Shown piece after piece: positions 12,627 to 28,504 of a DNA stretch of 47,794 nt. Below the pieces are notes generated by a model that did no database searches, had not been told where the DNA came from, and worked only from the letters and a program-made list of their open reading frames with translations. This stretch comes from a virus. A program made the translations under genes and the position numbers. Position 1 is the stretch's first letter; every line of letters begins with the position of its first letter. The stretch spans positions 1 to 47,794 of the IMG/VR virus record IMGVR_UViG_3300042296_000097; one strand, written 5' to 3'.

Positions 12627-13358
12627 TTAGAACTTAATCCATGTCCAGTCCATACCGTGTACAGGTGTTAGTCCCACATGACTTCTTGGTATAAAGTATT
12701 TGTCCGTTTTGATCTTTAATTGATCAACTAGATTACTATACACACTGTCGACCATTACTAGACTTTCTGCGCCTTCTATGATCTTTAGCCAGTCGAAGAT
12801 GCTGTCAGTTTCCGCTTTGATATACACTGTTTGCCAGTCGCTGGGTATTATACTGGGATCGAAGTTGGCCGTGTGATCGCTGCCTTCTAGATGTACTACT
12901 GCGTATTTTTCATTGGTAATGATCTTGTCATATAGACGTTGTTCTCTTTGTGCATCACGCTGAATACACTCGCTAAGTTTCCACTTGTTTAAGAATGGTA
13001 CGCCCGCTTTGATGTACTTGTATTGATCAAACTTGGTCTGTTGAAAGTACAGTTCTTCGTGGAATTTATGGCCCGTCAGTGCTTGATACAGGGGGATGAT
13101 CTCGTCACAATGAAAGTTCTTCAGGGCCTTCATGGGTTGGTCGTAGAAGAAACTGCCCGGGTCTGTCTGCACTGGAATCCATTTGATCCAGGGTACTGTG
13201 TGTTCAAAGTGCGAGATGAATTCTGTACATATGGGCCACAGAATATCCCAGCCTTGATCGTGATAAAATTTAGCTATGGGCAGAGCTATCACTATGTCGC
13301 CTAGACCTCTTGATTGTACTATGCCCAGTTTGGGTCTACGTGGAGATTTTGCTGTCAT
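12627..13358 (-). CDS. Heptosyltransferase-like glycosyltransferase (GT9 type)
   Basis: 243 residues from MTAKSPRRPKLG. The N-terminal GIVQSRGLGDIVIALPIAKF block matches the first Rossmann domain of GT9 (ADP-heptose:LPS heptosyltransferase) enzymes, and the C-terminal ESLVMVDSVYSNLVDQL block corresponds to the sugar-nucleotide-binding half. It is shorter than bacterial heptosyltransferases (about 320-350 residues). It follows another GT9-like gene by 8 bases and shares its late promoter. It may add sugars to a virion protein or host glycan. The upstream in-frame ATG overlaps the neighbour. Confidence 0.75.
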   Translation of the reverse strand: MTAKSPRRPKLGIVQSRGLGDIVIALPIAKFYHDQGWDILWPICTEFISHFEHTVPWIKWIPVQTDPGSFFYDQPMKALKNFHCDEIIPLYQALTGHKFHEELYFQQTKFDQYKYIKAGVPFLNKWKLSECIQRDAQREQRLYDKIITNEKYAVVHLEGSDHTANFDPSIIPSDWQTVYIKAETDSIFDWLKIIEGAESLVMVDSVYSNLVDQLKIKTDKYFIPRSHVGLTPVHGMDWTWIKF

Positions 13359-13366
13359 ATTGTTGA

Positions 13367-14125
13367 TTAAAAGTATTCGCCGCGGGGATGATCCGGGAAC
13401 CAGCATTCATTGCGTTCCTGTGGTAGATCTCTGCGTAGTTCACAGGCCCAGTCCGCTCCCAGTCCTATGGCCAGACTCAAACCTAGGCTTTGATTGCCCA
13501 CGAACTGATCCGCACCCGCAATGACTTCAGCCAACTCCAGTAGGGTCTCTGTGGGATGATAGGGTATGGCCCAGTTGGCAAACTTACAGAACTCTTGATG
13601 CTCTTCGGGTAGACCCACAAACACAGCTCGATCTTCTGCTTGATCACGAATGGCTGTCCAACCTGTTAGACTGTCGGGACTGTTCCAACGAGCGGACCTG
13701 TTGACCACTATTTCCGCAATGGGCGTGGGCTTGGGCACGGTGAGCCAGGGTTGATTGCGTAAAATTGTGCGCAGACCCGGCTCTCGGATCTTGAATGCTT
13801 CTGCGTAGCAGTCCACATAGTTGCCCGGGTGACCCACGAACAAGGGTCTGAATAGATCCAAATTGTGCGTGATTTCCTCTTTGGGATCCAGTGCATCACA
13901 GCGTGTGATGTAGTCCTGGGCCAGGAAAAAGCTCTGCATGAAGTCTAGATCTTTTGGGGTCATGCGACCCTGATGGAATGGGTTTGGGGGGCTACCGTAG
14001 TAGTGTTGACCTATCCAGTCAACTTGATTGAGGTGTAGATAAAATTCTCCACCGCCAAAGTGACGCATTATGGGCAGAGCATATATGATGTCGCCCATGG
14101 TACCTGAATGTTTGTATCGTTTCAT
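13367..14125 (-). CDS. GT9-like glycosyltransferase
   Basis: 252 residues from MKRYKHSGTMGDII. The opening GTMGDIIYALPIMRHFGGGE mirrors the GT9 N-terminal signature (G-GDI--ALP), and the late GADQFVGNQSLGLSLAIGLG segment mirrors the donor-site loop of the C-terminal domain. The start at 14125 is preferred because a late box (ATTAAATA) lies 8 bases upstream; a start at 14170 would put the box inside the gene. First of two tandem glycosyltransferase-like genes, divergent from the virion gene at 14201. Confidence 0.75.
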   Translation of the reverse strand: MKRYKHSGTMGDIIYALPIMRHFGGGEFYLHLNQVDWIGQHYYGSPPNPFHQGRMTPKDLDFMQSFFLAQDYITRCDALDPKEEITHNLDLFRPLFVGHPGNYVDCYAEAFKIREPGLRTILRNQPWLTVPKPTPIAEIVVNRSARWNSPDSLTGWTAIRDQAEDRAVFVGLPEEHQEFCKFANWAIPYHPTETLLELAEVIAGADQFVGNQSLGLSLAIGLGADWACELRRDLPQERNECWFPDHPRGEYF

Positions 14126-14133
14126 AATGTTAG

Positions 14134-14141
14134 TATTTAAT
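14134..14141 (-). promoter_or_regulatory. T4-like late promoter box ATTAAATA
   Basis: It lies 8 bases upstream of the GT9-like gene start, on the minus strand, 31 bases from the oppositely oriented late box at 14172. Confidence 0.65.
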
Positions 14142-14171
14142 CTAAGCTGATTTGTCAATGTCGAGATCAAG

Positions 14172-14179
14172 GATAAATA
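14172..14179 (+). promoter_or_regulatory. T4-like late promoter box GATAAATA
   Basis: It lies 21 bases before the ATG of the first plus-strand virion gene. Confidence 0.7.
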
Positions 14180-14200
14180 TCACACTATTGTAACATCATT

Positions 14201-15028
14201 ATGACCTATCCACTATATTCCAGTCCATTGACTCTAATCCAGATCGACGACTACAACACCATCTACAACAATGTGGAAGAAATTCTGGGCACGGGCATAG
14301 ATGGCTATGGGTTGACCTGGCTGAACAGTGTGCCCGTGACCAATCGCAACAGGGTCACAGCCCAGGGTTGGCATAACTTGATTGCTGACATTAATCAAAT
14401 ACATCTTCACGTACTAAACGTCACTACATCAACAGTGGGCCCCACAACAGGCACTACCCTGGTCTCCACAGCCACACATAATGATCTACACTACAGAGCT
14501 CTTTGGCTCTTGGACGATGTGCGTCGGTACACTTGCCATCCTAGCCAGTACTTCTCAGATGGTGGTAATACTATAGATCGCACAGGCGCTGTGACCACAA
14601 GCCCTTATAGAGGGGGTGTTAGTACCAGTACAACTACATCATGGGTTGGGGAAATCAGCCATGTGGTCACGGCCAGTTGGACTACTAGCCTGCTAGGTCA
14701 CTATTTCTTTAACACTGGGGGTGAGTTTGTTTGGAGCAGTTTCTACGATGACACCACGGGGGTCAACGATCTAGATCAGGAGTGGGCTGCATTTATACTC
14801 TATATACAGGATACCCAGAACTGGAAATATACCAGAACACAGTGGCGCGACACAGCCTGGCCCACTACCAGTACCTACTGGACCAGTGGTACCCTGCAGA
14901 TCAGCATGGTAGCACAAAAGGACGTTAACACCGGCAAGGGTGTGGAATTTACCATAACCTATACAGATACCACGGCTCCTGGCTTTATCATCACGCCCAA
15001 GACCCATTTTGAGAACATCGTACTATAA
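14201..15028 (+). CDS. Virion structural protein
   Basis: 275 residues starting MTYPLYSSPLTLIQ. Rich in Thr, Ser and Trp, with repeated beta-like segments (TSWVGEISHVVTASWTTS) and few Lys, typical of baseplate or fibre-associated phage proteins. A late promoter box precedes it, and the next gene starts 15 bases after its stop. I recall similar proteins among T4-like phage structural genes but cannot give a specific position in the particle. Confidence 0.72.
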   Translation: MTYPLYSSPLTLIQIDDYNTIYNNVEEILGTGIDGYGLTWLNSVPVTNRNRVTAQGWHNLIADINQIHLHVLNVTTSTVGPTTGTTLVSTATHNDLHYRALWLLDDVRRYTCHPSQYFSDGGNTIDRTGAVTTSPYRGGVSTSTTTSWVGEISHVVTASWTTSLLGHYFFNTGGEFVWSSFYDDTTGVNDLDQEWAAFILYIQDTQNWKYTRTQWRDTAWPTTSTYWTSGTLQISMVAQKDVNTGKGVEFTITYTDTTAPGFIITPKTHFENIVL

Positions 15029-15043
15029 AAGAGAACAACATAT

Positions 15044-15868
15044 ATGGCAGCGGGAAACTTTAAACTATACAACAACAGTGCAAACACCATCACTGTTACC
15101 ACATTCTCTTTTACAATTGACAACACTAAGATACTGCAACACGCGAATCTCACAGTATTTGGAGAGGGCAGTGACATTACCACAACGCCCATTACCCTGG
15201 CTAGTCCGTTGGTGTTGCCCCCACGTACATACAGTTCTGAATTTACCACATTCCATACTTCGGCCACACTGGTCACAGGTGACTATCTCAGTGTTTTAAC
15301 AGTGTCTGGTCAGTACCCGGACGCTAGTTCAACTACTACATCAGAGACCACAACAGTGCGTATTTCTGGAACATCGCAGCCAGACCCAGAAGTTCCTTAC
15401 ACACCTACAGGTGACGGCGGTGGTGGCGGTGGTGTTTCTTGTGCTGACAGCAACAGTAGTAGTTGCTCGGCCAGCGGCAGCGGCAGCGGCAGCGCCGGTG
15501 CTTGCGTAGTAGCAACAGCGTTGACTACCGCTGGCACTTGGTCTTTATCTGAAAAAATGGAATTAGTAAAGTGGTGCGAAAATGCTTTACATGATACAAT
15601 GTTAGGTGAAACATTTCGACGCGGTTATCAGGTTATTGGATCAAAAATCATTCTTCCTTTATTGTTTAAAAACGGAACAAGGTGGACATCTAAATATGTA
15701 GAATGGTCATTTACTAATGCTACAAATATGTTACGCGGTAACAGATTTAATAAATTATCTATACCAAATAGTGTTGTTTGGTTAGCGGCAATGACTGTAA
15801 CTGGTGCTGTTGTAAGTAAAAGATATGCAAGAAAATCGTGGATATCCTTATATAGGAAAAACAAATAA
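15044..15868 (+). CDS. Virion protein with Gly/Ser linker and CVVATAL-type C-terminal domain
   Basis: 274 residues starting MAAGNFKLYNNSANT. Residues 1-125 are a beta-rich Thr/Ser domain. Residues 125-152 are a flexible linker (GDGGGGGG, then SGSGSGSAG) with two Cys. Residues 152-274 start with CVVATALTTAGTW and contain FRRGYQVIGSKI, resembling the Cys-x-x-ATA motif domain at the C-terminus of various secreted or phage proteins. The base composition falls from GC-rich to AT-rich at the linker, so the gene may be a recent fusion. Second gene of the virion trio. Confidence 0.72.
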   Translation: MAAGNFKLYNNSANTITVTTFSFTIDNTKILQHANLTVFGEGSDITTTPITLASPLVLPPRTYSSEFTTFHTSATLVTGDYLSVLTVSGQYPDASSTTTSETTTVRISGTSQPDPEVPYTPTGDGGGGGGVSCADSNSSSCSASGSGSGSAGACVVATALTTAGTWSLSEKMELVKWCENALHDTMLGETFRRGYQVIGSKIILPLLFKNGTRWTSKYVEWSFTNATNMLRGNRFNKLSIPNSVVWLAAMTVTGAVVSKRYARKSWISLYRKNK

Positions 15869-15871
15869 GTC

Positions 15872-17401
15872 ATGGCAAATAATTTTGATACTAATCTAAG
15901 AATTACCAGTTCACTCGGATTTAGAATATCTGGTGGCGCTGTTAAAGGCCCAGTTCCAACATTAGAGACACTGAAATATCTATGGGAACCAGTTAAGAGG
16001 GCACCTACGGCTGTTACTCAAACAAAGATATTACGAGTAACACCTAATCCCGTTCCTACCTTTGTATTTCCACCAGCTTCGACCAGTACCACAGATCTTG
16101 TTTTGCAAAATCCAACTAACTGGGCAGATTTGTTAAAATGGTACAGTACTGCTACACGACAGACTCTTACCCTACATAATGACGGAAATACTCCTTTGAC
16201 CGTAGGAGACACTGATGGTAATGGTATTAAACGATCTTTTCCTAACGGAGTCTTTCCAATATTTCATACTACCAGTTCCTTTGTTATCCCTCCGGGCGGC
16301 AGTCAAAACTTTATTATCTCTTATTATGGAACTGAAGTAGGTCAATATTCTAATTTCTTAAATATTGTTTCTGATTTTGATGCTGTAAACTATAAGATAC
16401 CTACATTTCAAAATGTAGAACGTACCTTTAGTATGCGTGTAAGTCCCATCACTGCAACTACCACGGCAACACAGCTAGGAGAACAAGTACGTCAAAGTTT
16501 TGAAATTATGCCCGTATATGATCTAATTGATCAGCCAGATGTACTATTAGATTTTACTACATCGTTTGGAAACAACAACCCAGGATGGAGCATCGTTGAT
16601 AAAGCCAACAATACCTTTACTGTAAGATTGCGTGTGCTAGAGCTAAACAACACACCCGGAACCTATACTAACAATGTAACTATTGCATCTGAAGGCGGTG
16701 TTGGAATTAACTCTGTAGTCACAGTCACTAACATAGTTAATGTAGCTATTGACCTTTCGAGATTTGAATCCTTGGGTTATTGGGTAAGTCCTGCTGCACC
16801 GTATAACAGTGTTATAGGAATGAGTTACGACAAGATTGATCAAGTTAAAGTTCTTACCATAGGTGTAGGTACAGGTGGAGATGGCACAGATTTATATGGT
16901 GCTGGTGGTCAAGTCTTTACAGCAACCAGCACATTGGGCTATCTTGCCACAGCTACAGACTATCCGTATAGTGGATGGGCCACTGTATATAGATTCCCGT
17001 TATCGTCTACTGGACCTGTACAGCATCTCAGTAGCGCCACAAATAGTGACGGCCTGCCACTGTATAAGGTAAAGAGTACACCAGGATTGGACTACGAAAC
17101 ATCTTTTGGTTTAGAATCTTCTGTAGGATCTATGTTCATTGTCAATGACGACGGCAACGGAAACGTTAATGTTTCATTAAATCAGTTGAGGGACATATCG
17201 GATCTTAACAGTGATTTTGATACAACACTAAAAAATCTAACTAGAGCATTCCATTATTATTCGAATGTTGATACTCCGCCTAGGTATTACCAGTTAGACT
17301 CCGGCGCTATACTTGATGGAACAGTGACACGTAAATTTATAGGATTTGACAATTCGGGTACAGTACTGACCAGCATTGTGTCGCTGCCTAAGAGTTTCTA
17401 A
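15872..17401 (+). CDS. Virion structural protein with Ig-like regions
   Basis: 509 residues starting MANNFDTNLRITSS. It has several beta-sandwich-like regions (FVIPPGGSQNFIISYYG, FTVRLRVLELNNTPGTYT) with the look of Ig-like folds that end in NNVTIAS-type strands, then a C-terminal region rich in Asp/Asn and Tyr. It starts 3 bases after the previous stop. Probably part of a baseplate or fibre. The family is not recognised with certainty. Confidence 0.72.
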   Translation: MANNFDTNLRITSSLGFRISGGAVKGPVPTLETLKYLWEPVKRAPTAVTQTKILRVTPNPVPTFVFPPASTSTTDLVLQNPTNWADLLKWYSTATRQTLTLHNDGNTPLTVGDTDGNGIKRSFPNGVFPIFHTTSSFVIPPGGSQNFIISYYGTEVGQYSNFLNIVSDFDAVNYKIPTFQNVERTFSMRVSPITATTTATQLGEQVRQSFEIMPVYDLIDQPDVLLDFTTSFGNNNPGWSIVDKANNTFTVRLRVLELNNTPGTYTNNVTIASEGGVGINSVVTVTNIVNVAIDLSRFESLGYWVSPAAPYNSVIGMSYDKIDQVKVLTIGVGTGGDGTDLYGAGGQVFTATSTLGYLATATDYPYSGWATVYRFPLSSTGPVQHLSSATNSDGLPLYKVKSTPGLDYETSFGLESSVGSMFIVNDDGNGNVNVSLNQLRDISDLNSDFDTTLKNLTRAFHYYSNVDTPPRYYQLDSGAILDGTVTRKFIGFDNSGTVLTSIVSLPKSF

Positions 17402-17440
17402 AAGATTCGGAAGCATTCTCTACTAAGATAATTAGTAGTA

Positions 17441-20386
17441 ATGCTTCTAGATCAATACCCCAAAATCAATACAGACCTAATCAAAGAAATCCCCTGGGGA
17501 GGGGATGAGTTTTATTATGACCAACAATTATACAACTTAGGTGAAGGCGATACTGAATTCTTAGTGATAAATCCTTATGCAAGACATTCTAGTGTCTTGA
17601 ACTTTGTAAATGATGTGCCTAAAACAAGAAAATGTCTAGTTTGGACATACAAAGGTGAGTGGGTAGCCAAACTGTTTAAAGATGGGTGGCACCCATATGC
17701 TGGATATGAAACACATGAAATAGAAGTACCAAAGAATCACATGTGGGCAAAAACGCCTATCTGGAAAAAGAATTCTGCAATAGCAAGTTCTATTACATTT
17801 GAATTTAATCCTATAGAAAGTTATGTATATAATCAAGACGATGCTGACTATACGTTAGTTTGGTACATTGATCCTAGAGTCAATCCTTTAGAAGATAAAA
17901 TATGGGCATTTACTTGTGAGGTGCCTGGCGCCAACGTTAAAGGCGAGAAAGACATGGGATACGTTATGCCTGAAATGCGAGTTACATGGAATCCTGATCT
18001 TCCTAAACTACTCATCGATGTCAACGAATGTTATCCGCCATTTTGGTTTCTGGATTACGTTACTGCACTTGAGCTGGATCCTAACTACAGTCCAAAACCA
18101 GGTACTTGGTTGATTAAGTTTGAACCTAAACGTAAAAAAACTTCTAAATGGGAATGGTTAGGCACAGTTAGTCCTGAGTTTAAAATTGAACAAAATCCTA
18201 GCCTACCAGAAATGCGTTTTGATTTAGATTACGACATTCCTTGGCACGATCTAGCCTATGAACATATATGGTATCTAGACAAAGAAATAAACGGGGAGAA
18301 GATTTGGGCTTTGAAAATTACTCCCAGTGCAGAGATTGTGGGTGTTAAAGAAATAGGAACAGTTACTCCTCTGATTGCCGAAACACTGGATGTAATCTTT
18401 ATTAGTTACCATGAATCTAATGCAGAAGAGAATTGGCAGCGTGTTTTAGAAAAAGCACCACATGCCAAACGTGTGGATGGTGTTACTGGTATCTTTGAGG
18501 CACATAAGGCAGCGGCTAAGTTATCCAAGACTGACATGTTCTATGTAGTCGACGGTGATGCTTACTTAGTCGATGACTGGCAGTTCGACTACCAACCAGA
18601 GATATTTGATAGAGACTGTACATACGTCTGGCACAGTAAGAATCCTGTTAATGATTTAGAATATGGTTACGGTGGCGTTAAATTATTCCCTAAGCGGGCA
18701 TTTGGCAAAATCAAAGTTTGGAAAACATTAGACCTACTGACGACTATTGTTCCTAAATTAAAAGTCTTCGATAAAGTCAGTAACATTACAACATTTAACA
18801 CAGACGAGTTTGCCACATGGCGAAGTGCATTTAGGGAAACAATTAAGTTATGCAATACCATTGCACAAGATCCCGATAATGCTGAAGCTATTGATAGATT
18901 GGCAGCATGGGAGACTCTGGGAGTAGATAGGCCGTTCGGTAATTATGCATTATCTGCTGTACATTCTGCTAAAGAGTTCTTTGATGCAAATAAAAATACA
19001 CCAACATTACAACAAATAAATAACAGGTCCTGGTTACTCACAATGTTCAACTCAAAAAAAATAACTGCCTTCGATTACAAACCTATTAAAATTGTCAAAA
19101 AAGAAGATGTAGTTGCAGTTGCAACAAATACAACCACAATATGTGCAGTGCCCTGGATGCATCTTGCATTTGAACCTAGTGGAAAAGTAATTCCGTGTTG
19201 CCTAACCTCTGTACATAATTATTTTGCTGGTGATCTAACACATCAGAGCATTGAAGAAATTTGGAACAGCGGCAATATGAAATCTTTAAGAAAAGATATG
19301 ATAGGGGGCAAAGAGCCCGAAATATGCCGTAAATGTTTTGATAGAGAACGGGTCACTGGTGAAAGTGGTCGTTTCTATCACAATAGAGACTTTCCAGAGG
19401 TAGTAAAAAAAATTCCAGAAATTACACTAGCAGACGGAACATGCACTACTATGGAGTTGAAGTATTGGGATTTCCGTTTTAGTAATCTTTGCAATTTTAA
19501 ATGTCGTAGTTGCGGACCACGTTACAGTTCAGCATGGGTGCCGGATGCTAAAAAATTAGGCCTCACTGATCAAGAAAAAATATGGAGCATCGAATCAGTA
19601 GATGATAAGAATAACTTTGATTTTCTAAAAGATCAAATTAACCATGTGGAAAGAATTTACTTTGCTGGAGGCGAACCTCTACTCATGCCTGAACACTGGC
19701 AAATTTTAGAAATGTTGGTAGAAAAACAACGATTTGATGTTAAACTATCATATAACACAAATGCATCAGTGTTATCTTATAATAAGAAAAATGTTATTGA
19801 CTACTGGCGGCGATGGAACTTTGGCAAATTAGAAATATGGCCCAGTATCGATGAAGTTGGAGAACGTGCAGAACTCATTCGAGCCGGCACTGTATGGTCT
19901 AAGGTTGAGTCAAATCTAAAAGAATTGATGACATTAGATAATGCTATCATACGCCCGGGTATTACTGTAGGTGCTTGGAATGTTGGCAGATTTCCTGAAA
20001 TTATTAAACATTTGATTTCAATAGGAGTTATACGTCAACATCCTAAAACCAAATTTATTAATTACAATAATTTCTTCATCAATTTGTTAGAACATCCTTC
20101 ACATTATCATGTTAGTATTCTACCCGATGATTATCGTGCAGAGACTGTAATTAAATTAGAAACTTTTGTCAAAGAGCACAACGAAACATATAATACAAGC
20201 ATAGATCATCTTTTAACACATATCATACATGAATTAAAAAAACCATTTGATTTAACATCAGCAAAGAAATTTGTAACAGTGACGGAACAATTGGATAAGT
20301 TAAGAGGTGAGAATACTTATGAAATCATACCAGAAATGAAATTAGTGTTAGAAGCAACAAGGAATAATGAATATGGACAAGATTGA
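17441..20386 (+). CDS. Fusion: N-terminal repeats, glycosyltransferase-like domain, twitch-type radical SAM
   Basis: 981 residues. Residues about 120-320 hold roughly three imperfect repeats of one unit (VWYIDP..KIWAF..., later HIWYLD..KIWALKI, with GTVSPEF-type ends). Residues 325-500 resemble a GT-A glycosyltransferase, with DVIFISYHESNAEENW and a DGD motif (371-373) in place of DxD. From 568 an N-terminal twitch Fe-S domain follows (C568, C586, C587, C629, C632), then a radical SAM core with C684-x3-C688-x2-C691 (CNFKCRSC) and GGEP at 743-746. Radical SAM enzymes cleave S-adenosylmethionine with a 4Fe-4S cluster. The substrate is unknown; a glycan or peptide is suggested by the fusion. It overlaps the next gene by 20 bases. 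Confidence 0.85.
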   Translation: MLLDQYPKINTDLIKEIPWGGDEFYYDQQLYNLGEGDTEFLVINPYARHSSVLNFVNDVPKTRKCLVWTYKGEWVAKLFKDGWHPYAGYETHEIEVPKNHMWAKTPIWKKNSAIASSITFEFNPIESYVYNQDDADYTLVWYIDPRVNPLEDKIWAFTCEVPGANVKGEKDMGYVMPEMRVTWNPDLPKLLIDVNECYPPFWFLDYVTALELDPNYSPKPGTWLIKFEPKRKKTSKWEWLGTVSPEFKIEQNPSLPEMRFDLDYDIPWHDLAYEHIWYLDKEINGEKIWALKITPSAEIVGVKEIGTVTPLIAETLDVIFISYHESNAEENWQRVLEKAPHAKRVDGVTGIFEAHKAAAKLSKTDMFYVVDGDAYLVDDWQFDYQPEIFDRDCTYVWHSKNPVNDLEYGYGGVKLFPKRAFGKIKVWKTLDLLTTIVPKLKVFDKVSNITTFNTDEFATWRSAFRETIKLCNTIAQDPDNAEAIDRLAAWETLGVDRPFGNYALSAVHSAKEFFDANKNTPTLQQINNRSWLLTMFNSKKITAFDYKPIKIVKKEDVVAVATNTTTICAVPWMHLAFEPSGKVIPCCLTSVHNYFAGDLTHQSIEEIWNSGNMKSLRKDMIGGKEPEICRKCFDRERVTGESGRFYHNRDFPEVVKKIPEITLADGTCTTMELKYWDFRFSNLCNFKCRSCGPRYSSAWVPDAKKLGLTDQEKIWSIESVDDKNNFDFLKDQINHVERIYFAGGEPLLMPEHWQILEMLVEKQRFDVKLSYNTNASVLSYNKKNVIDYWRRWNFGKLEIWPSIDEVGERAELIRAGTVWSKVESNLKELMTLDNAIIRPGITVGAWNVGRFPEIIKHLISIGVIRQHPKTKFINYNNFFINLLEHPSHYHVSILPDDYRAETVIKLETFVKEHNETYNTSIDHLLTHIIHELKKPFDLTSAKKFVTVTEQLDKLRGENTYEIIPEMKLVLEATRNNEYGQD

Positions 20387-21716
20387 TCAATTAAGAACAG
20401 AAATTATTGAAAGTGAGACATTTTGTTTTTATCCTTTTACACAACTAAGTTCTAATCCCGCTGGCCACCTTAAACCGTGTTGTAATTATGTAGGAACAAT
20501 GACACACCCGAACGGAGATATCATTAGCATTTTATCCGGGGATAATTTTAGTGATGCGTGGAACAGCGAACACCTTGTTGATTTAAGAAAAAAATTACAT
20601 ACAGGAGATACTCCTGATGCTTGCAGGCGTTGCATTCGAGACGGCGACGTTAGTATGCGTACACGGTCAATTGAAGATTATAAAAATAATCGAAAAACAT
20701 TAGAGATAGTTGCCAACAGCATAAACAACAGTTACGAAGTGTTACACCAACCAACATATTTAGAATTAAAGCCTAGTAATTTGTGCAACCTTAAATGTGT
20801 CATGTGCAACAGTTACGACAGTAGTCAGATTGCTAAAGAGTTAGGTGAACTTAATAATAAATTTGGTGGCATCAAAGTATTAGATGGAAGATTTATTGAA
20901 ATTTCCAGTGTGTTTGGAATCACTGAACATAATAAAACATGGAAAGATGTCGAACATCCCGATTGGTCTGATAATGAAGAAATATGGGAAAGTTTTACAA
21001 AATTAGCACCTGGACTAGAAGTATTAAGTTTTGCCGGTGGTGAACCTACAATTATGCCATTTGTGTTAAAGGCACTGCAATATGTTGTAGACAATGATCA
21101 TGCTAAAAATATTACTGTATTTTTGTCCAGTAACTTTACAAACCTAAATAAAAACTTTTTAGAGTTAATGCCTAAGTTTAAAAAGTTTGAACTCATTGCC
21201 AGTATTGACGGGTTTGATAAAGTCAACGATTATGCTAGATATCCTAGTAAATGGCGCCAGGTATCAAAGAATTACATTGAAGCAAAGAGTTATATGAAAC
21301 ACAGCAATGTTAAGATATTGAATAATATCACCGTTAGCTCATTGAACATTGTTAACTTAGATAGCCTATTATATTTTATAGAAGAACAGGCCAAAGTGCA
21401 TCCATACTTTAAAGAGTGGCCATATAACATCAACTTAATTATGTTTCCGATGGAACAACAAATATCAATGTTACCACAGTCTCTGAAAGATTTAGCTACA
21501 CAGAGATTAACAGCATATCTAGAAAATAGTCAAGTCATTAAAGATTTTCCCGGACTAGATGGAAAGATACACTTGTTATTAAATGAATTAACCAAGCCTG
21601 ACAATCCGAAACTGTTTAAGGTATTCAAACATAGAATTAAAATACTTGATGACCATAGAGGAATTTCAATCGGCGATTATATTCCAGACTTGAAAGATGC
21701 TTTTAAACATGACTAA
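20367..21716 (+). CDS. Twitch-domain radical SAM protein
   Basis: 449 residues starting MNMDKIDQLRTEII. Like its neighbours it opens with a half-SPASM (twitch) Fe-S module (C20, C38, C39, C86, C89) placed N-terminal to the radical SAM barrel, the arrangement NCBI calls N-terminal twitch radical SAM. The core has C140-x3-C144-x2-C147 (CNLKCVMC) and FAGGEP for SAM binding. The C-terminal 150 residues are helical and family-specific. The start overlaps the upstream gene, with AAGGA before it. Translation is probably coupled across all three radical SAM genes. Confidence 0.88.
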   Translation: MNMDKIDQLRTEIIESETFCFYPFTQLSSNPAGHLKPCCNYVGTMTHPNGDIISILSGDNFSDAWNSEHLVDLRKKLHTGDTPDACRRCIRDGDVSMRTRSIEDYKNNRKTLEIVANSINNSYEVLHQPTYLELKPSNLCNLKCVMCNSYDSSQIAKELGELNNKFGGIKVLDGRFIEISSVFGITEHNKTWKDVEHPDWSDNEEIWESFTKLAPGLEVLSFAGGEPTIMPFVLKALQYVVDNDHAKNITVFLSSNFTNLNKNFLELMPKFKKFELIASIDGFDKVNDYARYPSKWRQVSKNYIEAKSYMKHSNVKILNNITVSSLNIVNLDSLLYFIEEQAKVHPYFKEWPYNINLIMFPMEQQISMLPQSLKDLATQRLTAYLENSQVIKDFPGLDGKIHLLLNELTKPDNPKLFKVFKHRIKILDDHRGISIGDYIPDLKDAFKHD

Positions 21717-22944
21717 GACATATTGCCCGTTAGCATGGAATCATTTTTCTACACACACTGATGGCAATATGCGTCTTTGTTGTAATTCTACTAATGCAGG
21801 AAGATTAAAGAAAGATGGCAAGTTTGTAAAAATAAATGAGATAACAAGTTTGATTGAATTTTACAATATTGATCAATTAAAAAATATAAGAAAGAAAATG
21901 ATAGACGGCGAGCGGGTGGCCGAGTGCCAGCATTGTTATAATGTTGAGGACAATGGGGGTGAAAGTGTTAGAAATTGGTTTGTAAAGAGATGGCCGATTG
22001 AAGATATTATAACAAACACTGAAATGCATACGGGCAAGTTAGAATCTGTTGATGTAAATTACTTAGATTTAAGTTGGTCGAATAAGTGTAATCTACAATG
22101 CAAGATGTGTACCCCGGGAGCTAGCGATCAACTAATAAAAGAATTTAAATTCCTCAACATTAAACCATGGGGTGAAAAAGAAAGTGATTATAAAGCTCAA
22201 TGGAACTATGATCAAATTAAACATATCCTTGACCTAGTAAAGACTGACGGATTAGTGCAGATATTAGTAACCGGTGGTGAACCATTAATCAACAACGATT
22301 TTTATACATTTTGTAAAGAACTAATTAGTTCAGGTTTATCTAAACAGGTTGACTTATCTATACATACAAATTTAACTGTGACACCGTCAAAATGGTTTGA
22401 CATCTGGAGCCATTTTAAGACTATGACTATTAAAGTAAGTATTGATGCTGTTGCTGATATGTACGAATATATTAGATATCCTGGAAAATGGAACATTGTT
22501 AAAGATAATATTGATAGCATAGTTCAATATTCGAATGAAAACGAAAATATTGGTATCGAGTTTCACACTGTGTTTTCTATTTTTAATACACATAAATTTA
22601 CAGAATTGTTAGATTATATTGTGAGGTTGGAAGGAAAGAATATTTTAAACTTTCCTCACATAAATTATATCTACGATCCAAGCTATGCATCCCCGAGTAA
22701 TTTACCAACAGCTTATAAAAATACAGTGTATCAAGAAATTGCAACCTGGTTTGAAAACAATAGAGAACTACTTGAAAAAGATGCAGTTAAAGAAAAGGCT
22801 AACATATTGAGTGCAATGATTACATTTTTAATCGGAACACCTGAGTCAGATATAAATTTTAAAAACAGTGTTTCGATAATAAAAAAGATGGATGCTTATC
22901 GAAATCACAATACAGAAAAATATTTGCCGTGGTGGAAAAATTAA
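21709..22944 (+). CDS. Twitch-domain radical SAM protein
   Basis: 411 residues from MTKTYCPLAWNHFS. Twitch module at C6, C24, C25 and the later ECQHC pair; radical SAM motif C127-x3-C131-x2-C134 (CNLQCKMC); VTGGEP for SAM binding. The start at 21709 overlaps the upstream stop by 8 bases; an ATG four codons earlier overlaps more. It ends 3 bases from the convergent methyltransferase gene. Together with the two genes before it, it forms a tandem set that probably arose by duplication. Substrate unknown. Confidence 0.88.
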   Translation: MTKTYCPLAWNHFSTHTDGNMRLCCNSTNAGRLKKDGKFVKINEITSLIEFYNIDQLKNIRKKMIDGERVAECQHCYNVEDNGGESVRNWFVKRWPIEDIITNTEMHTGKLESVDVNYLDLSWSNKCNLQCKMCTPGASDQLIKEFKFLNIKPWGEKESDYKAQWNYDQIKHILDLVKTDGLVQILVTGGEPLINNDFYTFCKELISSGLSKQVDLSIHTNLTVTPSKWFDIWSHFKTMTIKVSIDAVADMYEYIRYPGKWNIVKDNIDSIVQYSNENENIGIEFHTVFSIFNTHKFTELLDYIVRLEGKNILNFPHINYIYDPSYASPSNLPTAYKNTVYQEIATWFENNRELLEKDAVKEKANILSAMITFLIGTPESDINFKNSVSIIKKMDAYRNHNTEKYLPWWKN

Positions 22945-22947
22945 CTG

Positions 22948-23730
22948 TTAGGTATATTTTATAAAATTAGTTCTATCCCAGTCCGGACCACGAAACTCCA
23001 TTCTGTCATCAGTCCATCCTATGGGTTGATACCCGTAACAATCAAAATCCTGAGGATAAGTTGTTTTAGTTATAGTTACAGGATATTTTCGGTCTTTCAT
23101 ATCTTTAGATAATACATCTATGCAAAACGTTTTATAAAAATCAAATGCTGGCGGTCTGCATAGATATGCTTTATTACATTGACCAACTAAAAACATTTTT
23201 AAATTTAATGGATGTTTTTCTAAATATGAAAAAGTGCTAGCTGTAACCTGAGGAAACATGGTTGAAAAGAAATCATCAACAATAACAACTCCATAGTCAG
23301 ACAAAAAATGATCAGCTAAAATTAAATCTTTATAGCATTGTGCATAACTATGATCGCCATCAATATGAAACCATGAATAATCGCGAGAATGTTCTTGAAA
23401 AATAGAATAATGAAAATGCACCAAACTGTTAGAATAATCATTTATTAATCTTAGATTTAATCCCTCAATCTTTGATAGTAAATTTGAATAAGTTGTGTCC
23501 ATCCATTCACCGGGATCTACAATCACCTGCTGTGTGTTGTTGGCCTGTGCATATAGCCCACTTAGCATTGCAGACTTTCCATGTAATACACCTATTTCTA
23601 AAAAATTACGCACAACTTTATTTTCGGTTTGATAACCTAATAACGAGTCCCATACTAATGCACTGGGAAATTGTAAGGACCCTGGTATATCTTCAGATAT
23701 AACATTATATTGATTTAAAAAACTTTTCAT
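22948..23730 (-). CDS. Class I SAM-dependent methyltransferase (Methyltransf_24-like)
   Basis: 260 residues starting MKSFLNQYNVISED. Motif I is FLEIGVLHGKSA (about 43-54), and the later FHIDGDHSYAQCYKDL and YGVVIVDDFF blocks are the hallmark of the Methyltransf_24 family, often associated with sugar or small-molecule methylation. It overlaps the B12 radical SAM gene by 4 bases (ATGA), so the two are co-expressed from the late box at 25697. This pairing suggests methylation or rearrangement of a common substrate. Confidence 0.85.
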   Translation of the reverse strand: MKSFLNQYNVISEDIPGSLQFPSALVWDSLLGYQTENKVVRNFLEIGVLHGKSAMLSGLYAQANNTQQVIVDPGEWMDTTYSNLLSKIEGLNLRLINDYSNSLVHFHYSIFQEHSRDYSWFHIDGDHSYAQCYKDLILADHFLSDYGVVIVDDFFSTMFPQVTASTFSYLEKHPLNLKMFLVGQCNKAYLCRPPAFDFYKTFCIDVLSKDMKDRKYPVTITKTTYPQDFDCYGYQPIGWTDDRMEFRGPDWDRTNFIKYT

Positions 23731-25691
23731 TTTTTAAAATCTATTTCTGTGTAATTAACTATCTTAATAGGGATAACTTTGCTAGGCTCCTCTAAAACAG
23801 TTATTAGTTTTGGCCAACCAACTTGATCTCCATCTAAATGAGTGCCGTCGAGGTGTATTACAATACAATCATTTTCAAAATTATCTTCAACTCTAATTAT
23901 TTTTCTTGTTTGAAGATCTGAAAACTGTACAATTTTACCAACTGTTAATTCTTCTAAAATGTAAGGAACATGTGAAAATAATATTGCAGGCCCCCAATTT
24001 CTAGCAACACCATTTAACCAATTCTCATCCGAATGCCGGCTAATTGCATAAACATTTGAACTTGGGGTACTTTTTAAGAAACCTGAATATTCGAATAAAA
24101 ACTTTTTAGCTATTTGATCTTCGGGATGATCTTTAACCCATTCTGTGTAATAGTATATTGCTTTTTCTGGTTGACCTATTGCAATATAATATTGGGCAAT
24201 GACTTGATTTCTATTGAGAAGATATGTCGACGGATAAGTGGTTTTTATACCTAAGTCGGAAACTAATCGACAAAAATCTTCAAATCTTTTTAATCGAACT
24301 AGGAATGTGTTATTACCATCTACACTTTTCCAAAAAGTTCCGCCGAGTGTTTTGTCAATACCGAATTTTTCTGCGTTCTCCCATCCAGGAGTTCCGTTAG
24401 CAAATCCGCAAAATGCTGCACTGGGATTTACATATAATTTATTTTTTGAATTACGTCTTAAAAACTCTAAGACCATTAATGAATCTTCTTCAGTTTCTCC
24501 CGGTAACCCAAACATGACATTGTAAACTGCATTAAGTCCGGTCCTTGCATGAGATTCAGCAATTTTATCAATATCGGCACCTTTTGATAATAACTTTCCT
24601 ACACTCCTCATAAGTGTAGGGTTTGGAGTTTCTAATCCGTAGGCCATGACCACACATCCGGACTGTTTTAATTTTATCATCAGTTCTTCGGTCATTTCTT
24701 TTCTAATAACTGCCTGTCCGGCCCATTGTATTTTAATTTTATTTTCAATGAGGTATTCGGCAAACTTTTCAATTGCGCTTATCTTCCCGTTACATAAACT
24801 ATCTTGAAAGTCAATAAAGTCAATTTCAGGATATAATTTTAATTGGTACTTAACTTCTTCAATCATGCTTTCTGCAGACCGAAATCGATATGATTCCCAA
24901 TAAGGTTGCTCATTACAGAATATACATTTATTAGGACACCCTCGACTAGACGCCATTGGTAATCGTGTTGGGGATAGGTAAGGAGCTAATGAAAAATCAC
25001 TGTAGTGGGGTATCGGAAGAGTGTCGATTTTTGGAATCATTGGCCTTGTTGGAGTAGCATGTACTGCTCCGTCTTTAAACACTAACAATCCAGGGCAATC
25101 GAGCAATGATTGATTTTTTCGAACACGCTCAATTATGTCTACTAATGTTTCTTCTCCCTCAGCCTGGGCGACTGCATCTATTAACGGATTTTTTGCCAAA
25201 ACATTACCAGCTAGATATCGGTGGGCATGAGGACCACCGACAATAATCTTTAGCTCAGGCTTACGTGCTTTGAGCAGTTTGATAAGATGCATCGAAGTAT
25301 GCATTGAAGTGTTGTATAAACTAAATCCAACTAATGGTGTATTAGTCGACACCACTAACTCGACAAAGTCATCAATTTCTTTTTTGTATTCGGTTAACAG
25401 GTCATTAACGCAGTCTTTAGATTCCCAAAACCACTGAGATTGATCTATGTCCCACATTATGGAAAATTTCTCAGGTCTAATAGCAAAAAATTCAACATTT
25501 AAATCTAATGGTAAAATCTTGTATCCTTTCTGCCGAACATAGGCTGAAAGTGATGCTAAAGAAAGCGGAGCTGTTTGCACTCCCCATCCAGGTGCCTGGA
25601 CTAGTATTATATCGGGATTGTTCAAATTACCATGATTTGTAGTTGAATTTGGAAAAACATCAGTTAGTAATTGTATAGATCTATCAGGCAT
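23727..25691 (-). CDS. Cobalamin-type radical SAM enzyme
   Basis: 654 residues starting MPDRSIQLLTDVFP. Residues 25-195 are a B12-binding-like Rossmann domain (ILVQAPGWGVQTAPLSLASL near the start, IIVGGPHAH later); the classical DxHxxG motif is absent, as in many enzymes of this class. The radical SAM core has C252-x3-C256-x2-C259 (CPNKCIFC). A helical TPR-like stretch (about 490-545) and a C-terminal domain of unknown type follow. Known relatives (BchE, P- and C-methylases) methylate or cyclise unreactive carbons. The late box is 5 bases upstream. Confidence 0.85.
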   Translation of the reverse strand: MPDRSIQLLTDVFPNSTTNHGNLNNPDIILVQAPGWGVQTAPLSLASLSAYVRQKGYKILPLDLNVEFFAIRPEKFSIMWDIDQSQWFWESKDCVNDLLTEYKKEIDDFVELVVSTNTPLVGFSLYNTSMHTSMHLIKLLKARKPELKIIVGGPHAHRYLAGNVLAKNPLIDAVAQAEGEETLVDIIERVRKNQSLLDCPGLLVFKDGAVHATPTRPMIPKIDTLPIPHYSDFSLAPYLSPTRLPMASSRGCPNKCIFCNEQPYWESYRFRSAESMIEEVKYQLKLYPEIDFIDFQDSLCNGKISAIEKFAEYLIENKIKIQWAGQAVIRKEMTEELMIKLKQSGCVVMAYGLETPNPTLMRSVGKLLSKGADIDKIAESHARTGLNAVYNVMFGLPGETEEDSLMVLEFLRRNSKNKLYVNPSAAFCGFANGTPGWENAEKFGIDKTLGGTFWKSVDGNNTFLVRLKRFEDFCRLVSDLGIKTTYPSTYLLNRNQVIAQYYIAIGQPEKAIYYYTEWVKDHPEDQIAKKFLFEYSGFLKSTPSSNVYAISRHSDENWLNGVARNWGPAILFSHVPYILEELTVGKIVQFSDLQTRKIIRVEDNFENDCIVIHLDGTHLDGDQVGWPKLITVLEEPSKVIPIKIVNYTEIDFKK

Positions 25692-25696
25692 AGCGG

Positions 25697-25704
25697 TATT
25701 TATT
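25697..25704 (-). promoter_or_regulatory. T4-like late promoter box AATAAATA
   Basis: It lies directly upstream of the B12 radical SAM gene start (25691) on the minus strand. Confidence 0.7.
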
Positions 25705-25800
25705 AAATAAAATACTGTTATATTAACAACATTTGATCTCTCAGTAAATAGATGCTATATTTAGGGTTCCTAGTCTTGAAAAAAATATTGAAATTAAAGT

Positions 25801-26352
25801 ATGATAGTGAATAAGGATGCATTTAGTAGCGGTCAAATAGGAAGTAAGATTTGGCTCTGCGAAGAATTAGAAAAACTTTTTGATTCTGTCGATAGTATTT
25901 GGATCTACGGCGGATGGTATGGAGTAACAGCGTTCCTATTAAACAGTCGAGGCAATATACAGATTGGAAAGATACGCAGTTACGACGTTGATCCAAAATG
26001 CGAAGCTGTGGCGGACATGATCAACGAGAATTGGGTTATAGATAACTGGAAGTTTAAAGCTAAAACCCAGGACTGTAATCTACTTGATCTGGACTGGCAC
26101 GGCCCAGATTTGGTTATAAATACAAGCACCGAACACTTCGAAAGTTTGGATTGGTGGAACAGTATCCCAAAAGGAACCACTGTAGTACTTCAAGGCAACA
26201 ATATGCCGCACGAAGACCACCACATACACAGCAGTAGTTTAGACGAGTTCATCGGGACTTATCCAGTTAGTAACCTACTGTACCGCGGCCAAAAAGACTT
26301 TGAGTACCCCACTTGGAAGTTCTCAAGATTTATGCTTATTGGCATTAAGTAA
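25801..26352 (+). CDS. SAM methyltransferase-like phage protein
   Basis: 183 residues starting MIVNKDAFSSGQIG. IWIYGGWYGVTAFLL looks like motif I of a class I methyltransferase (GxxxG), IRSYDVDP like the acidic motif II, and DLVINTSTEHFES like the central strand. I recall similar proteins near structural genes in T4-like marine phages. A late-type box (AGTAAATA, 25743-25750) lies 50 bases upstream; the ribosome site is weak. The target is unknown. Confidence 0.75.
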   Translation: MIVNKDAFSSGQIGSKIWLCEELEKLFDSVDSIWIYGGWYGVTAFLLNSRGNIQIGKIRSYDVDPKCEAVADMINENWVIDNWKFKAKTQDCNLLDLDWHGPDLVINTSTEHFESLDWWNSIPKGTTVVLQGNNMPHEDHHIHSSSLDEFIGTYPVSNLLYRGQKDFEYPTWKFSRFMLIGIK

Positions 26353-26374
26353 TCCTAGATTTTACCAAAACCGG

Positions 26375-26420
26375 TTGCTTTTTACCAACTTTGACTGTAT
26401 AATAGTCATTGTTGTATAAT
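26375..26420 (+). promoter_or_regulatory. Two overlapping sigma-70 promoters before the lysin
   Basis: TTGCTT-17-TATAAT (26375-26403) and TTGACT-18-TATAAT (26391-26420) overlap. The spacer of the first carries TTTACCAAC, the reverse complement of the GTAAA motif in the early promoters. A strong AAGGAGG site lies before the ATG at 26452. Confidence 0.8.
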
Positions 26421-26451
26421 TATTTTACCACTAACGAAAAAGGAGGTCTAT

Positions 26452-27033: not shown

Positions 27034-27041
27034 GGACAAGT

Positions 27042-27362
27042 ATGTTTATCATTGATCAAATTAAAGACGCAGTATTATTTCTTGTTAAATTTGCTAAAGA
27101 TCACCTTGGGCATGTAAGTGCCCATACATTAGGTTGGGTTACAATTATCCTACTGCATCTGTCTAGTATTCCTACTCTTGTAGCAGTATTGATGGCGCAG
27201 AGCGATAAGCTGCCTCCTGTAGATTTAATGGTATTTGTTTGGAGTGCATTGATCACGCTGTTTTTTAAAGCTCTTATTGAACGTAACTTCTTGTACATTG
27301 CTACTATCTGTTTGGGCTTTGCGGCACAGACAGTAATTATGAGTTTGATCCTATTCAAATAA
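27042..27362 (+). CDS. Three-helix membrane protein, possible holin
   Basis: 106 residues starting MFIIDQIKDAVLFLV. An amphipathic N-terminal helix is followed by three hydrophobic segments (about 30-51, 60-80, 82-104). Size, topology and its place 8 bases after the lysin gene suggest a holin or spanin-like partner, but it matches no holin family I can name. AAGGACAAGT precedes the ATG. Its TAA lies inside the next late promoter box. Confidence 0.7.
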   Translation: MFIIDQIKDAVLFLVKFAKDHLGHVSAHTLGWVTIILLHLSSIPTLVAVLMAQSDKLPPVDLMVFVWSALITLFFKALIERNFLYIATICLGFAAQTVIMSLILFK

Positions 27363-27365
27363 ATA
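27358..27365 (+). promoter_or_regulatory. T4-like late promoter box AATAAATA
   Basis: It contains the stop codon of the upstream gene and lies 5 bases before the ATG at 27371. Confidence 0.65.
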
Positions 27366-27370
27366 AATCT

Positions 27371-27622
27371 ATGCGAATCACAGAACTACTTGCCGAAAAG
27401 AAAATAGCCGCACCTACTGCTAGCCAATGCTCTATTGGGCGTTCTAGATTGAGTAATGTGCGCTATTCACAATGCGTGAGCCGCGGCATGCTTAAACATG
27501 ATAGCAATCATACTGACGGTACGGGTACACAGGGCAAGGCAGGCAGCGGTGTAAGACTCAAAGGCAAAAAGTCTAAGAGTGAATTACACGGCGGCCCTGT
27601 TAAAGACTACGACAGTAAATGA
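27371..27622 (+). CDS. Small basic late protein
   Basis: 83 residues starting MRITELLAEKKIAAP. The N-terminal MRITELL helix resembles the starts of two other late genes here (MRATEII at 33990, MRAKEF at 36887). The rest is polar and basic with two Cys and a Gly/Lys-rich end (GSGVRLKGKKSKSE), likely disordered and nucleic-acid- or virion-bound. It ends base to base against the convergent gene at 27623. Not recognised. Confidence 0.7.
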   Translation: MRITELLAEKKIAAPTASQCSIGRSRLSNVRYSQCVSRGMLKHDSNHTDGTGTQGKAGSGVRLKGKKSKSELHGGPVKDYDSK

Positions 27623-27976
27623 TTACCACTCGTCATTCTGATTGAGTTTCAGCACGGCCGTTTCTAACAACTCGTGATGATCTAACTCGGCGAAACACTT
27701 GTCGAGTTCATATATTTTTTCTTCGTTATTAAAATTAGTTTCCCATTCCGAAACGCCTAACATTTCCATTAGTTCTGTAAACGTTATAGTCTCTCCCCGA
27801 ACCTGGCTAACCCAAATACAGGTTAAGAAACTGCACATAAAAATCACACGTTGATTTTCTATACCGTATTCTTCGCACCATTCTAAAGTTTTATTCAAAT
27901 AGTAGTCGATGTCGTCAATACGATGCTCTAACTGTATGATCCATTCTTTAGTATCATCTCTAGACCAGTATGCCAT
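27623..27976 (-). CDS. Hypothetical late protein coupled to the Cys-rich protein
   Basis: 117 residues starting [15 protein letters not shown]. Helical and acidic, with three Cys (LEWCEEYG, MCSFLTCIW). The ATG overlaps the TAA of the upstream ten-Cys protein (TAATG), so the two are translated together and may interact. No family is recognised. Confidence 0.75.
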   Translation of the reverse strand: MAYWSRDDTKEWIIQLEHRIDDIDYYLNKTLEWCEEYGIENQRVIFMCSFLTCIWVSQVRGETITFTELMEMLGVSEWETNFNNEEKIYELDKCFAELDHHELLETAVLKLNQNDEW

Positions 27977-28140
27977 TAATTGTACCCTCTGCTATTATCT
28001 AATTCTATGCACTCTGGACATTCGCAGTCCGGGCAGTATTCGCATTCAGTACAACTATGATTGCAGTGTGCAGGACATCCGCATTTGCATTTAGCTGTAA
28101 ATCGTTTGTAGTTTTGAAAGTCATCCATGTATTGTTCCAT
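27976..28140 (-). CDS. 54-residue protein with ten cysteines
   Basis: Residues 18-44 hold ten Cys with the spacing CxCxCx3Cx3Cx2Cx2Cx2CxCx2C, plus two His. This density means zinc or iron-sulfur binding, or a metallothionein-like metal store. GGAG lies 6 bases before the ATG; a perfect TATAAATA late box is 18 bases upstream. It is divergent from, and shares its control region with, the A-type Fe-S carrier, and is coupled to the gene at 27623. No exact family is recognised. Confidence 0.78.
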
Positions 28141-28158
28141 GTTTTTCTCCTGCTTGGA

Positions 28159-28166
28159 TATTTATA
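28159..28166 (-). promoter_or_regulatory. Perfect T4 late promoter TATAAATA
   Basis: Drives the Cys-rich operon leftwards; it lies 1 base from the opposing late box at 28168, so the two divergent late promoters share one site. Confidence 0.8.
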
Positions 28167-28167
28167 G

Positions 28168-28175
28168 TGTAAATA
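28168..28175 (+). promoter_or_regulatory. T4-like late promoter box TGTAAATA
   Basis: It lies 5 bases before the ATG of the Fe-S carrier gene at 28181. Confidence 0.65.
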
Positions 28176-28180
28176 GTAGT

Positions 28181-28504
28181 ATGATCAACATAACATCAAA
28201 TGCTAAGACAAAGATTACAGACCTCCTAATGGAGGAAAATAATCCAAAACTTGCCTTAAGAACCTTTGTACAAGGTGGCGGCTGTTCTGGATTTAGTTAC
28301 GGATTTACCTTTGATGAAGAATTTAACGAAGATGATTTCCAATTTCCAATTGGTGAATTTAAAGTCGTAGTAGATGCTATGAGTATGCAGTATCTACAAG
28401 GTGCCGAAATTGATTACAAAGAAGATCTTTCCGGATCTAGCTTTTCAATAAAAAATCCAAACGCTCAATCCACTTGCGGCTGCGGCAGTAGCTTCTCCAT
28501 TTAA
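28181..28504 (+). CDS. A-type iron-sulfur carrier (ErpA/IscA/HesB family)
   Basis: 107 residues starting [15 protein letters not shown], the usual family length. The three conserved cluster ligands are present: C35 in [11 protein letters not shown], and C99 and C101 in the terminal CGCGSSF. These proteins carry 2Fe-2S or 4Fe-4S clusters to target enzymes. HesB-like genes are known from cyanophages. Here it sits beside four radical SAM enzymes that all need 4Fe-4S clusters, so it may mature them. The start is set at 28181 by the late box; an upstream frame opening lacks support. Confidence 0.92.

Follow-up and report, generated by a model that had tools for sequence, protein, structure and literature searches.

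Radical SAM and glycosyltransferase genes in an exchangeable cassette slot of a large phage genome

A viral DNA stretch of 47,794 bases (IMG/VR record IMGVR_UViG_3300042296_000097, hereafter the window) carries, between ~12.6 and 25.7 kb, a block of glycosyltransferase (GT), probable surface-protein, radical S-adenosylmethionine (SAM), and methyltransferase genes that are the exchangeable contents of a cassette slot. The reading that we favor, at just short of an even chance, is that a large aquatic phage has here an exchangeable cassette for building and tailoring glycans, next to surface-protein genes that evolve fast. The original prediction, made from the sequence alone, was that a joint system at 12,627–28,504, with an iron–sulfur (Fe-S) carrier and late promoters, modifies a virion protein or glycan, or the host surface. 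Gene co-occurrence across phages, an enzyme pair, and domain fusions speak for this idea, while the carrier, the late promoters of the GT genes, and a fixed gene set fall away. What stands is a real association of genes that is both conserved and mobile and for which a role in glycans is plausible; it goes beyond a single fixed system but ends earlier on the right than originally proposed.

The window belongs to a large phage genome. One of its radical SAM proteins, TwiC, recurs unchanged on IMG/VR contigs, the longest of which is 207.8 kb (G001), and one of these contigs (L009) equals window DNA over 21,245 bases. Among the proteins of this phage are relatives of rIIA, rIIB, ribonucleotide reductase, and several tail-fiber proteins (PHROGs). 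Neither a Gp23 capsid protein nor a Gp20 portal protein was found in the 207.8-kb contig, which may be a fragment, and no close relative at the DNA level was found among the 50,697 phage records searched.

A slot with a sharp right edge and variable contents

The edge of the slot was defined by DNA comparison (pieces >150 bases) with 8 relatives chosen from 80 loci that carry the downstream gene MT2. In all eight, similarity to the window starts at 25,772–25,816, i.e., at the start of MT2, and continues rightward. To the left, the content is replaced, and only one relative (L153) has two short matches there, of 67 and 72%. As controls, two contigs of the window's own phage matched throughout. 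Between the window and L153, the surface-protein gene fib3 and the GT-A gene described below diverge with the cargo; the backbone is 78 to 98% identical. This backbone consists, right of the slot, of MT2 (25,801–26,352, plus strand), which is SAM-methyltransferase-like by motif (alignment A5) and has no Pfam match, followed by SleB, a membrane protein, an ErpA-type A-type Fe-S carrier (28,181–28,504, plus strand), and DNA ligase. The stretch from MT2 through ErpA is backbone and lies outside the exchanged block, which is why the extent to 28,504 originally given cannot be kept. The carrier was correctly recognized, with 161.4 bits against NF010147 (ErpA; cut-off 117) for the longer frame 28,127–28,504; comparison with the homolog in L164 suggests that its start is probably 28,181 (MINIT...) rather than 28,127.

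The content of the slot was counted in 26 distinct slots, window included, with at least five genes upstream of MT2 and the MT2–SleB order. Of these, 18 contain radical SAM genes and 19 contain sugar-nucleotide or sugar-tailoring genes; 11 have both kinds, and none of the 26 lacks both. Here, a gene is counted as a sugar gene if it falls into one of five sequence clusters, which take their names from the Pfam matches of a single member each: nucleoside diphosphate (NDP)–sugar epimerase, CTP_transf plus mannose-phosphate isomerase, carbamoyltransferase, uridine diphosphate (UDP)–sugar dehydrogenase, and sugar C-methyltransferase. Since slot content differs from phage to phage, one fixed joint system is unsupported.

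Beyond the slot itself, genes for N-twitch radical SAM enzymes (hereafter Twi) are frequent nearby. MT2 relatives numbered 101 in IMG/VR, 80 of which were kept, and near-identical loci were collapsed at 95% identity from these 80 and 39 GT-A loci (L008 added), with the window's phage counted once in each bait set. Twi genes lie within 10 kb in 33 of 54 distinct MT2-bait loci and in 15 of 23 distinct GT-A-bait loci. At the scale of whole records, 22 of the 24 searched have a Twi match (G003 and G011 have none); 11 have at least three matches over the cut-off, which are clustered in 8 records (P ≤ 0.0105). Related phages do not, on these counts, carry the genes singly and scattered, which would have made a joint system unlikely. 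The densest of the 24 records is G016 (the L024 record, 72.7 kb), a single contig in which 21 Twi matches were counted and 11 pass the cut-off. A separate observation is that a conserved protein of 73 to 78 amino acids, absent from the window, is encoded near MT2-type genes in arrays (L013:12750–12986 and 12 other loci, in a comparison from which eight redundant or overlapping loci had been removed).

Enzymes, fusions, and a partner pair

The cassette contains TwiA (17,441–20,386), TwiB (20,367–21,716), and TwiC (21,697–22,944), three genes on the plus strand with operon-like overlaps of 20 nt each. Their products score 353, 306, and 324 bits, respectively, against NF033640 (N_Twi_rSAM, NCBIfam; curated cut-off of 170 bits) over nearly the full length of the model, and each contains both CxxxCxxC and GGEP, which bears out the earlier call of three tandem twitch-type radical SAM proteins. 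The radical SAM cysteines C140, C144, and C147 and the twitch cysteines C20, C38, C39, C86, and C89 are invariant in 14 chosen sequences, and CxxxCxxC is present in 151 of the 156 Twi frames of the first loci gathered. Facing these genes on the minus strand is a second pair, also as originally described. The gene for a Methyltransf_24 enzyme (22,948–23,730; PF13578, 46.8 bits) is convergent to TwiC and overlaps by 4 nt the gene for a B12-binding radical SAM enzyme (23,727–25,691), which is over the Pfam cut-offs for both PF02310 (B12-binding, 54.1 bits) and PF04055 (Radical_SAM, 49.5 bits), i.e., class B.

By its predicted structure, TwiA is a fusion that the original prediction had overlooked. 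An N-terminal region is followed by a GT-A domain (residues ~312–469, with a DxD motif at 371–373) and then by the N-twitch radical SAM domain (residues ~553–973). In a model covering residues 1–560 (predicted local distance difference test [pLDDT] score of 87.7), the GT-A domain has glycosyltransferases as its top Foldseek matches (E 2e-5), and structural realignment gave a Z of 11.0 and a root-mean-square deviation (rmsd) of 3.0 over 139 aligned residues. Both aspartates of the motif, D371 and D373, are invariant in 27 sequences. The middle domain of TwiA is a putative sugar transferase that would use a sugar nucleotide. In most of the other phages compared, the GT-A domain is encoded apart from the Twi domain; in L129, a Radical_SAM domain comes after a relative of the GT-A part of TwiA. 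Other Twi domains have as fusion partners a carbamoyltransferase, a sulfotransferase plus an aminotransferase, Wzt (polysaccharide export), and DUF6492 plus Methyltransf_24. In L092, which is filed under a Candidatus Pelagibacter metagenome-assembled genome (MAG) and is probably a phage contig, five Twi genes come after a GT-A gene.

How the Twi arrays arose was examined in a tree of 311 domains (at least ~280 residues and 120 bits, with copies >90% identical removed). For 104 of the 129 viral Twi domains, the nearest relative comes from another viral locus; for 19 it comes from a bacterial contig, and for only 6 from the locus itself. Since nearest relatives mostly sit in other loci, the arrays were assembled rather than freshly duplicated, and recent tandem duplication was rejected as their origin. 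Within the tree, the TwiB clade has 14 members, from five phages and nine bacterial contigs (mostly Bdellovibrionota), of which 13 are accompanied by a TwiC-clade gene, adjacent in 12, with shuffled order and orientation. In Bdellovibrionota and similar MAGs, the related adjacent pair is 27 to 38% (TwiB) and 25 to 32% (TwiC) identical; unlike the phage pair, it is patchy and lies on chromosomal contigs. Among 144 Bdellovibrionota genomes (E 1e-120), TwiB was found in two and TwiC in three, and both genomes with TwiB have an adjacent TwiC. TwiB–TwiC looks like an old partner pair, a mobile two-enzyme unit.

Upstream of TwiA are two GT genes and three genes for probable virion surface proteins. 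The product of GT9a (12,627–13,406, minus strand) has a GT9 (heptosyltransferase) fold in a predicted model (pLDDT 77), with TibC, WaaC, and GT9 as best Foldseek matches (E 4e-5, query template modeling [TM] score of 0.4 to 0.5). It is called GT9-like and not filed as GT9 because a sequence-profile match is missing in Pfam, NCBIfam, PHROGs, and the PDB. GT9b (13,367–14,170, minus strand), whose true start is probably an internal ATG near 14,125, is GT9-like by motif and is 56 to 66% identical in five phages (alignment A4); it gave no profile match (Pfam, PHROGs, and NCBIfam) and nothing convincing in a PDB sequence search. Two GT9-like glycosyltransferases, as first proposed, are hence supported by fold for one gene and by motif for the other. 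The plus-strand genes fib1 (14,201–15,028), which is fast-evolving and placed between the GT genes, fib2 (15,044–15,868), and fib3 (15,872–17,401) come next. Identity among relatives is 27 to 44% for fib3 and 31 to 38% for fib1, as compared with 52 to 67% for the glycosyltransferases. GT9a, fib3, and GT-A are found together in 7/7 distinct phages with upstream sequence, six of which also have GT9b and five fib1. The GT-A domain gene comes directly after fib3 in 23/23 loci, corresponding to 8/8 distinct phages where fib3 was detected, of which four (the window, L010, L153, and L176) also entered via other baits and half via GT-A alone.

Possible functions of the cassette

The gene identities, the folds, the slot edge, the co-occurrence, the TwiB–TwiC pair, and the fusions are shown by the comparisons above; the reactions, their order, and the acceptor that we infer for a glycan cassette are as follows. 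Attachment of sugars would fall to GT9a, GT9b, and the GT-A half of TwiA. TwiB, TwiC, and the radical SAM half of TwiA would each hold a [4Fe-4S]-SAM cluster and a twitch auxiliary cluster and carry out radical chemistry (oxidation, epimerization, or deoxygenation) on a sugar or a glycosylated residue. The B12 radical SAM enzyme would methylate carbon, and the Methyltransf_24 enzyme probably oxygen. The likeliest acceptor would be the phage's own fib1–fib3, with a host surface glycan as the main alternative; we lean toward the phage surface proteins because GT9a, fib3, and GT-A stay together. If true, viruses diversify surface glycans by radical SAM chemistry, which would explain the radical SAM arrays of marine phages, and cassettes of this kind would be a source of new glycan-tailoring enzymes.

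Several points weigh against a glycan cassette. Every viral locus was retrieved by a search with TwiC, GT-A, or MT2, which makes counts of a bait gene in its own loci meaningless, and the uncollapsed counts of loci with Twi genes (49/79 for MT2 and 27/38 for GT-A) include near-identical contigs. Among the 11 records covered by the clustering test, three (G004, G015, and G016; P = 0.06, 1, and 1) show no significant clustering of Twi matches; the other 13 of the 24 records have fewer than three over-cut-off matches. When 21 slot proteins of relatives were scanned with Pfam, seven were sugar enzymes, six gave other or weak matches, and eight gave none, while in the window cassette no nucleotide-sugar gene was recognized by Pfam, PHROGs, or NCBIfam. 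In the realignment of the TwiA GT-A domain, nucleotidyltransferases tie in Z with glycosyltransferases, GT-A folds including both, and the solved radical SAM enzymes nearest in sequence, among them peptide maturases, viperins, and a nucleoside-sugar decarboxylase, act on many substrates and do not point to any one of them. A Methyltransf_24 fusion in L012 was dropped as proof of a partnership between TwiC and the Methyltransf_24 enzyme because its Methyltransf_24 domain is not significantly similar (E 0.014) to that of the window. The reading of fib1–fib3 as fibers is one that we infer, since they match no PHROG (fib1 also has no Pfam match); of the claim that the block is flanked by fiber genes, what stands are tail-fiber PHROG matches at 31,260–33,959, 37,199–38,890, and 43,569–45,812. 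As for the TwiB–TwiC pair, the 14-member TwiB clade has a node support of 0.82, and the node at which phage and bacterial TwiC meet has one of 0.70. Moreover, one Twi gene sits between TwiB and TwiC in L011, L057 is the single TwiB-clade member without TwiC beside it, and for the L013 type the TwiC tree member is a near-identical copy in L016. Finally, the pair may act on another substrate because its bacterial neighbors gave no glycan enzyme: nine neighbor proteins scanned in L035–L039 were PpiD-like (twice), PEPCK, a penicillin-binding protein, a LysR regulator, a TRCF helicase, and three without a match.

Rather doubtful is the further idea of a plug-in slot, in which phages would swap ready-made radical SAM units, among them the ancient TwiB–TwiC pair shared with Bdellovibrionota and the GT-A radical SAM fusion, each phage decorating its own fibers with a different radical-tailored glycan.

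A glycan is not the only substrate to be considered. The radical SAM enzymes might alter side chains of a virion protein in the manner of maturases of ribosomally synthesized and posttranslationally modified peptides (RiPPs), with the GTs acting on the modified residue or separately. This we consider unlikely, for all that maturases (SkfB and others) are among the nearest solved structures, that the peptide S-glycosyltransferases SunS and ThuS are the top Foldseek matches of the GT-A domain, and that surface-protein genes adjoin. The NCBIfam models nearest to the B12 enzyme are likewise RiPP C-methyltransferases, but far under their cut-offs (ApyD, 113.7 of 750 bits; rSAM_ocin_1, 112.9 of 281.85 bits). 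The fusion partners of Twi domains are mostly carbohydrate enzymes, sugar genes occur in most of the distinct slots (19/26), and no small precursor stood out in the window cassette, where no systematic search for one was made.

It is similarly improbable that there is no joint function at all, the slot being a hypervariable landing site that gathers unrelated accessory genes. Cargo does vary between close relatives, the Twi–Methyltransf_24–B12 part has a low GC content (32 to 36% vs. 43% overall), which counts for an exchangeable glycan cassette as well, host-recognition clusters are called hypervariable in published passages (PMC7029224), and the TwiB–TwiC pair is also found apart from glycan genes in bacteria. 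Unrelated cargo is, however, difficult to reconcile with the persistence of that pair in phages and bacteria despite shuffled order and orientation, with domain fusions, and with the finding that 26/26 distinct cassettes have radical SAM or sugar genes.

Hypermodification of nucleic acids, with radical SAM enzymes and GTs acting on phage DNA or RNA bases, is highly unlikely. A QueC-like gene does lie near Twi-like genes in KVP40-type phages, but the genes of the window adjoin probable surface-protein genes, and QueC is full-length in KVP40 and K566, in contrast to the weak partial PP-loop matches that are all the window phage contig offers. QueC-type DNA modification in the window phage is thus not supported.

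The least probable option is an auxiliary Fe-S metabolism in which ErpA would work with the radical SAM enzymes as one cluster-managing unit, as outlined in PMC5332604 for marine phages that have a carrier gene and as many as 12 radical SAM genes: ErpA is 2.5 kb away, but it is present (≥60% identity) in 11/11 distinct loci without nearby radical SAM genes vs. 18/23 with them. These counts cover the 34 distinct loci with the ligase in view. Among 17 whole records, an A-type carrier is present without any Twi gene in G003 and was not found in G014, G016, and G017, all fragments, with 11 to 21 Twi matches each. Since it occurs with and without them, ErpA is not a special partner of radical SAM genes; it follows the backbone and was rejected as a module member, contrary to what had been assumed for the carrier. 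This separates the module from Fe-S metabolism and gives sharp limits for which genes belong in joint tests. Two loci of relatives (L155:11813–12843 and L177:12190–13206) have what amounts to a small Fe-S assembly set of a phage: an IscU-type gene, with a NifU_N match checked in L155, next to two A-type carrier genes.

Related phages, promoter motifs, and other genes

Radical SAM arrays near phage structural genes have already been published as observations, without tested function in the parts of the sources consulted. The host-recognition cluster of pelagimyophages is variable, lies near tail fibers, and contains glycosyltransferases, and two related genomes differ by radical SAM cassettes (PMC7029224). 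Our slot shares with it a variable fiber-side region with GTs and radical SAM cassettes; the passages in question describe no slot edge, enzyme pair, fusion, or radical SAM function, and the window phage is not assigned to the pelagimyophages. In the T4-like genome of a marine phage, 12 radical SAM genes and an A-type carrier were interpreted as Fe-S cluster metabolism (PMC5332604, in part); that genome is alike in having many radical SAM genes and a carrier, whereas in relatives of the window the carrier is independent of radical SAM. The cultured Aeromonas phage 332-Vera has eight radical SAM genes in a structural cluster, likewise an array among structural genes, but belongs to the Chimallinviridae (PMC12390700, in part). 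According to the excerpts consulted, Tasman Sea viromes are enriched in radical SAM, RmlD, methyltransferase, and glycosyltransferase genes (PMC7150976), and large aquatic phages have core glycosyltransferases (PMC12619734). In the portions of the literature found on the subject, we did not meet the slot edge, the GT-A fusion, or the TwiB–TwiC partner pair, which, together with the decoupling of ErpA, are what is new in this analysis.

In the phage records searched, TwiA finds two (E 1e-5), the B12 enzyme two, and TwiB 38 (E 1e-3), all but one of the latter Vibrio phages; GT-A and MT2 have no relative in any of these records by tblastn at E 1e-3. This provides cultured phages with related, more divergent genes. 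KVP40 has three full-length Twi-like genes (114 to 131 bits, under the NF033640 cut-off) and a QueC-like gene, and K566 has six Twi-like profile matches, two over the cut-off. In Vibrio phage QD01, three genes annotated as radical SAM (QD01_266, QD01_267, and QD01_278) are similarly arranged, with two places that resemble TwiB; they lie near an annotated RfaF-type (GT9) gene, which counts in favor of a glycan cassette. QD01 also has a QueC-like gene. Unlike the window phage, all three are without a GT-A or MT2 relative. QD01, the host of which is V. natriegens Vmax, is a practical test bed.

Late promoter boxes had been proposed for the GT genes, the B12 operon, and the carrier gene. The T4-type late promoter consensus is TATAAATA. 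Exact copies number 3 in the window vs. 3.3 expected, none of them within 60 nt upstream of any of the 52 genes, and with one mismatch there are 77 vs. 75.7 expected; exact late promoters of this type were therefore rejected, their counts being at expectation. The looser NATAAATA is upstream of 7/52 genes vs. 0.9 expected, including the B12 operon. Across the whole window, TAAATA precedes the start codon of 13/52 genes vs. 2.6 expected, at distances of 10–13 nt (eight genes), 26–36 nt (four genes), and 56 nt (one gene), and may thus serve this phage as a late promoter or as a leader signal. The claim thus survives in altered form for the B12 operon (NATAAATA) and for ErpA (TAAATA upstream) and fails for both GT9 genes, which have neither motif.

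The window phage has a further Twi gene, located at ~94–98 kb of the 207.8-kb contig (L227:8858–13049), near what look, from the sequence, like a probable glycosyltransferase, a methyltransferase, a short-chain dehydrogenase, and an oxygenase. Two more stretches (L229:12752–17566 and L230:11203–12246) appear, by eye, to encode a Bug/TctC-type receptor, a Rieske-like protein, a PstS-like protein, and another possible B12 radical SAM enzyme.

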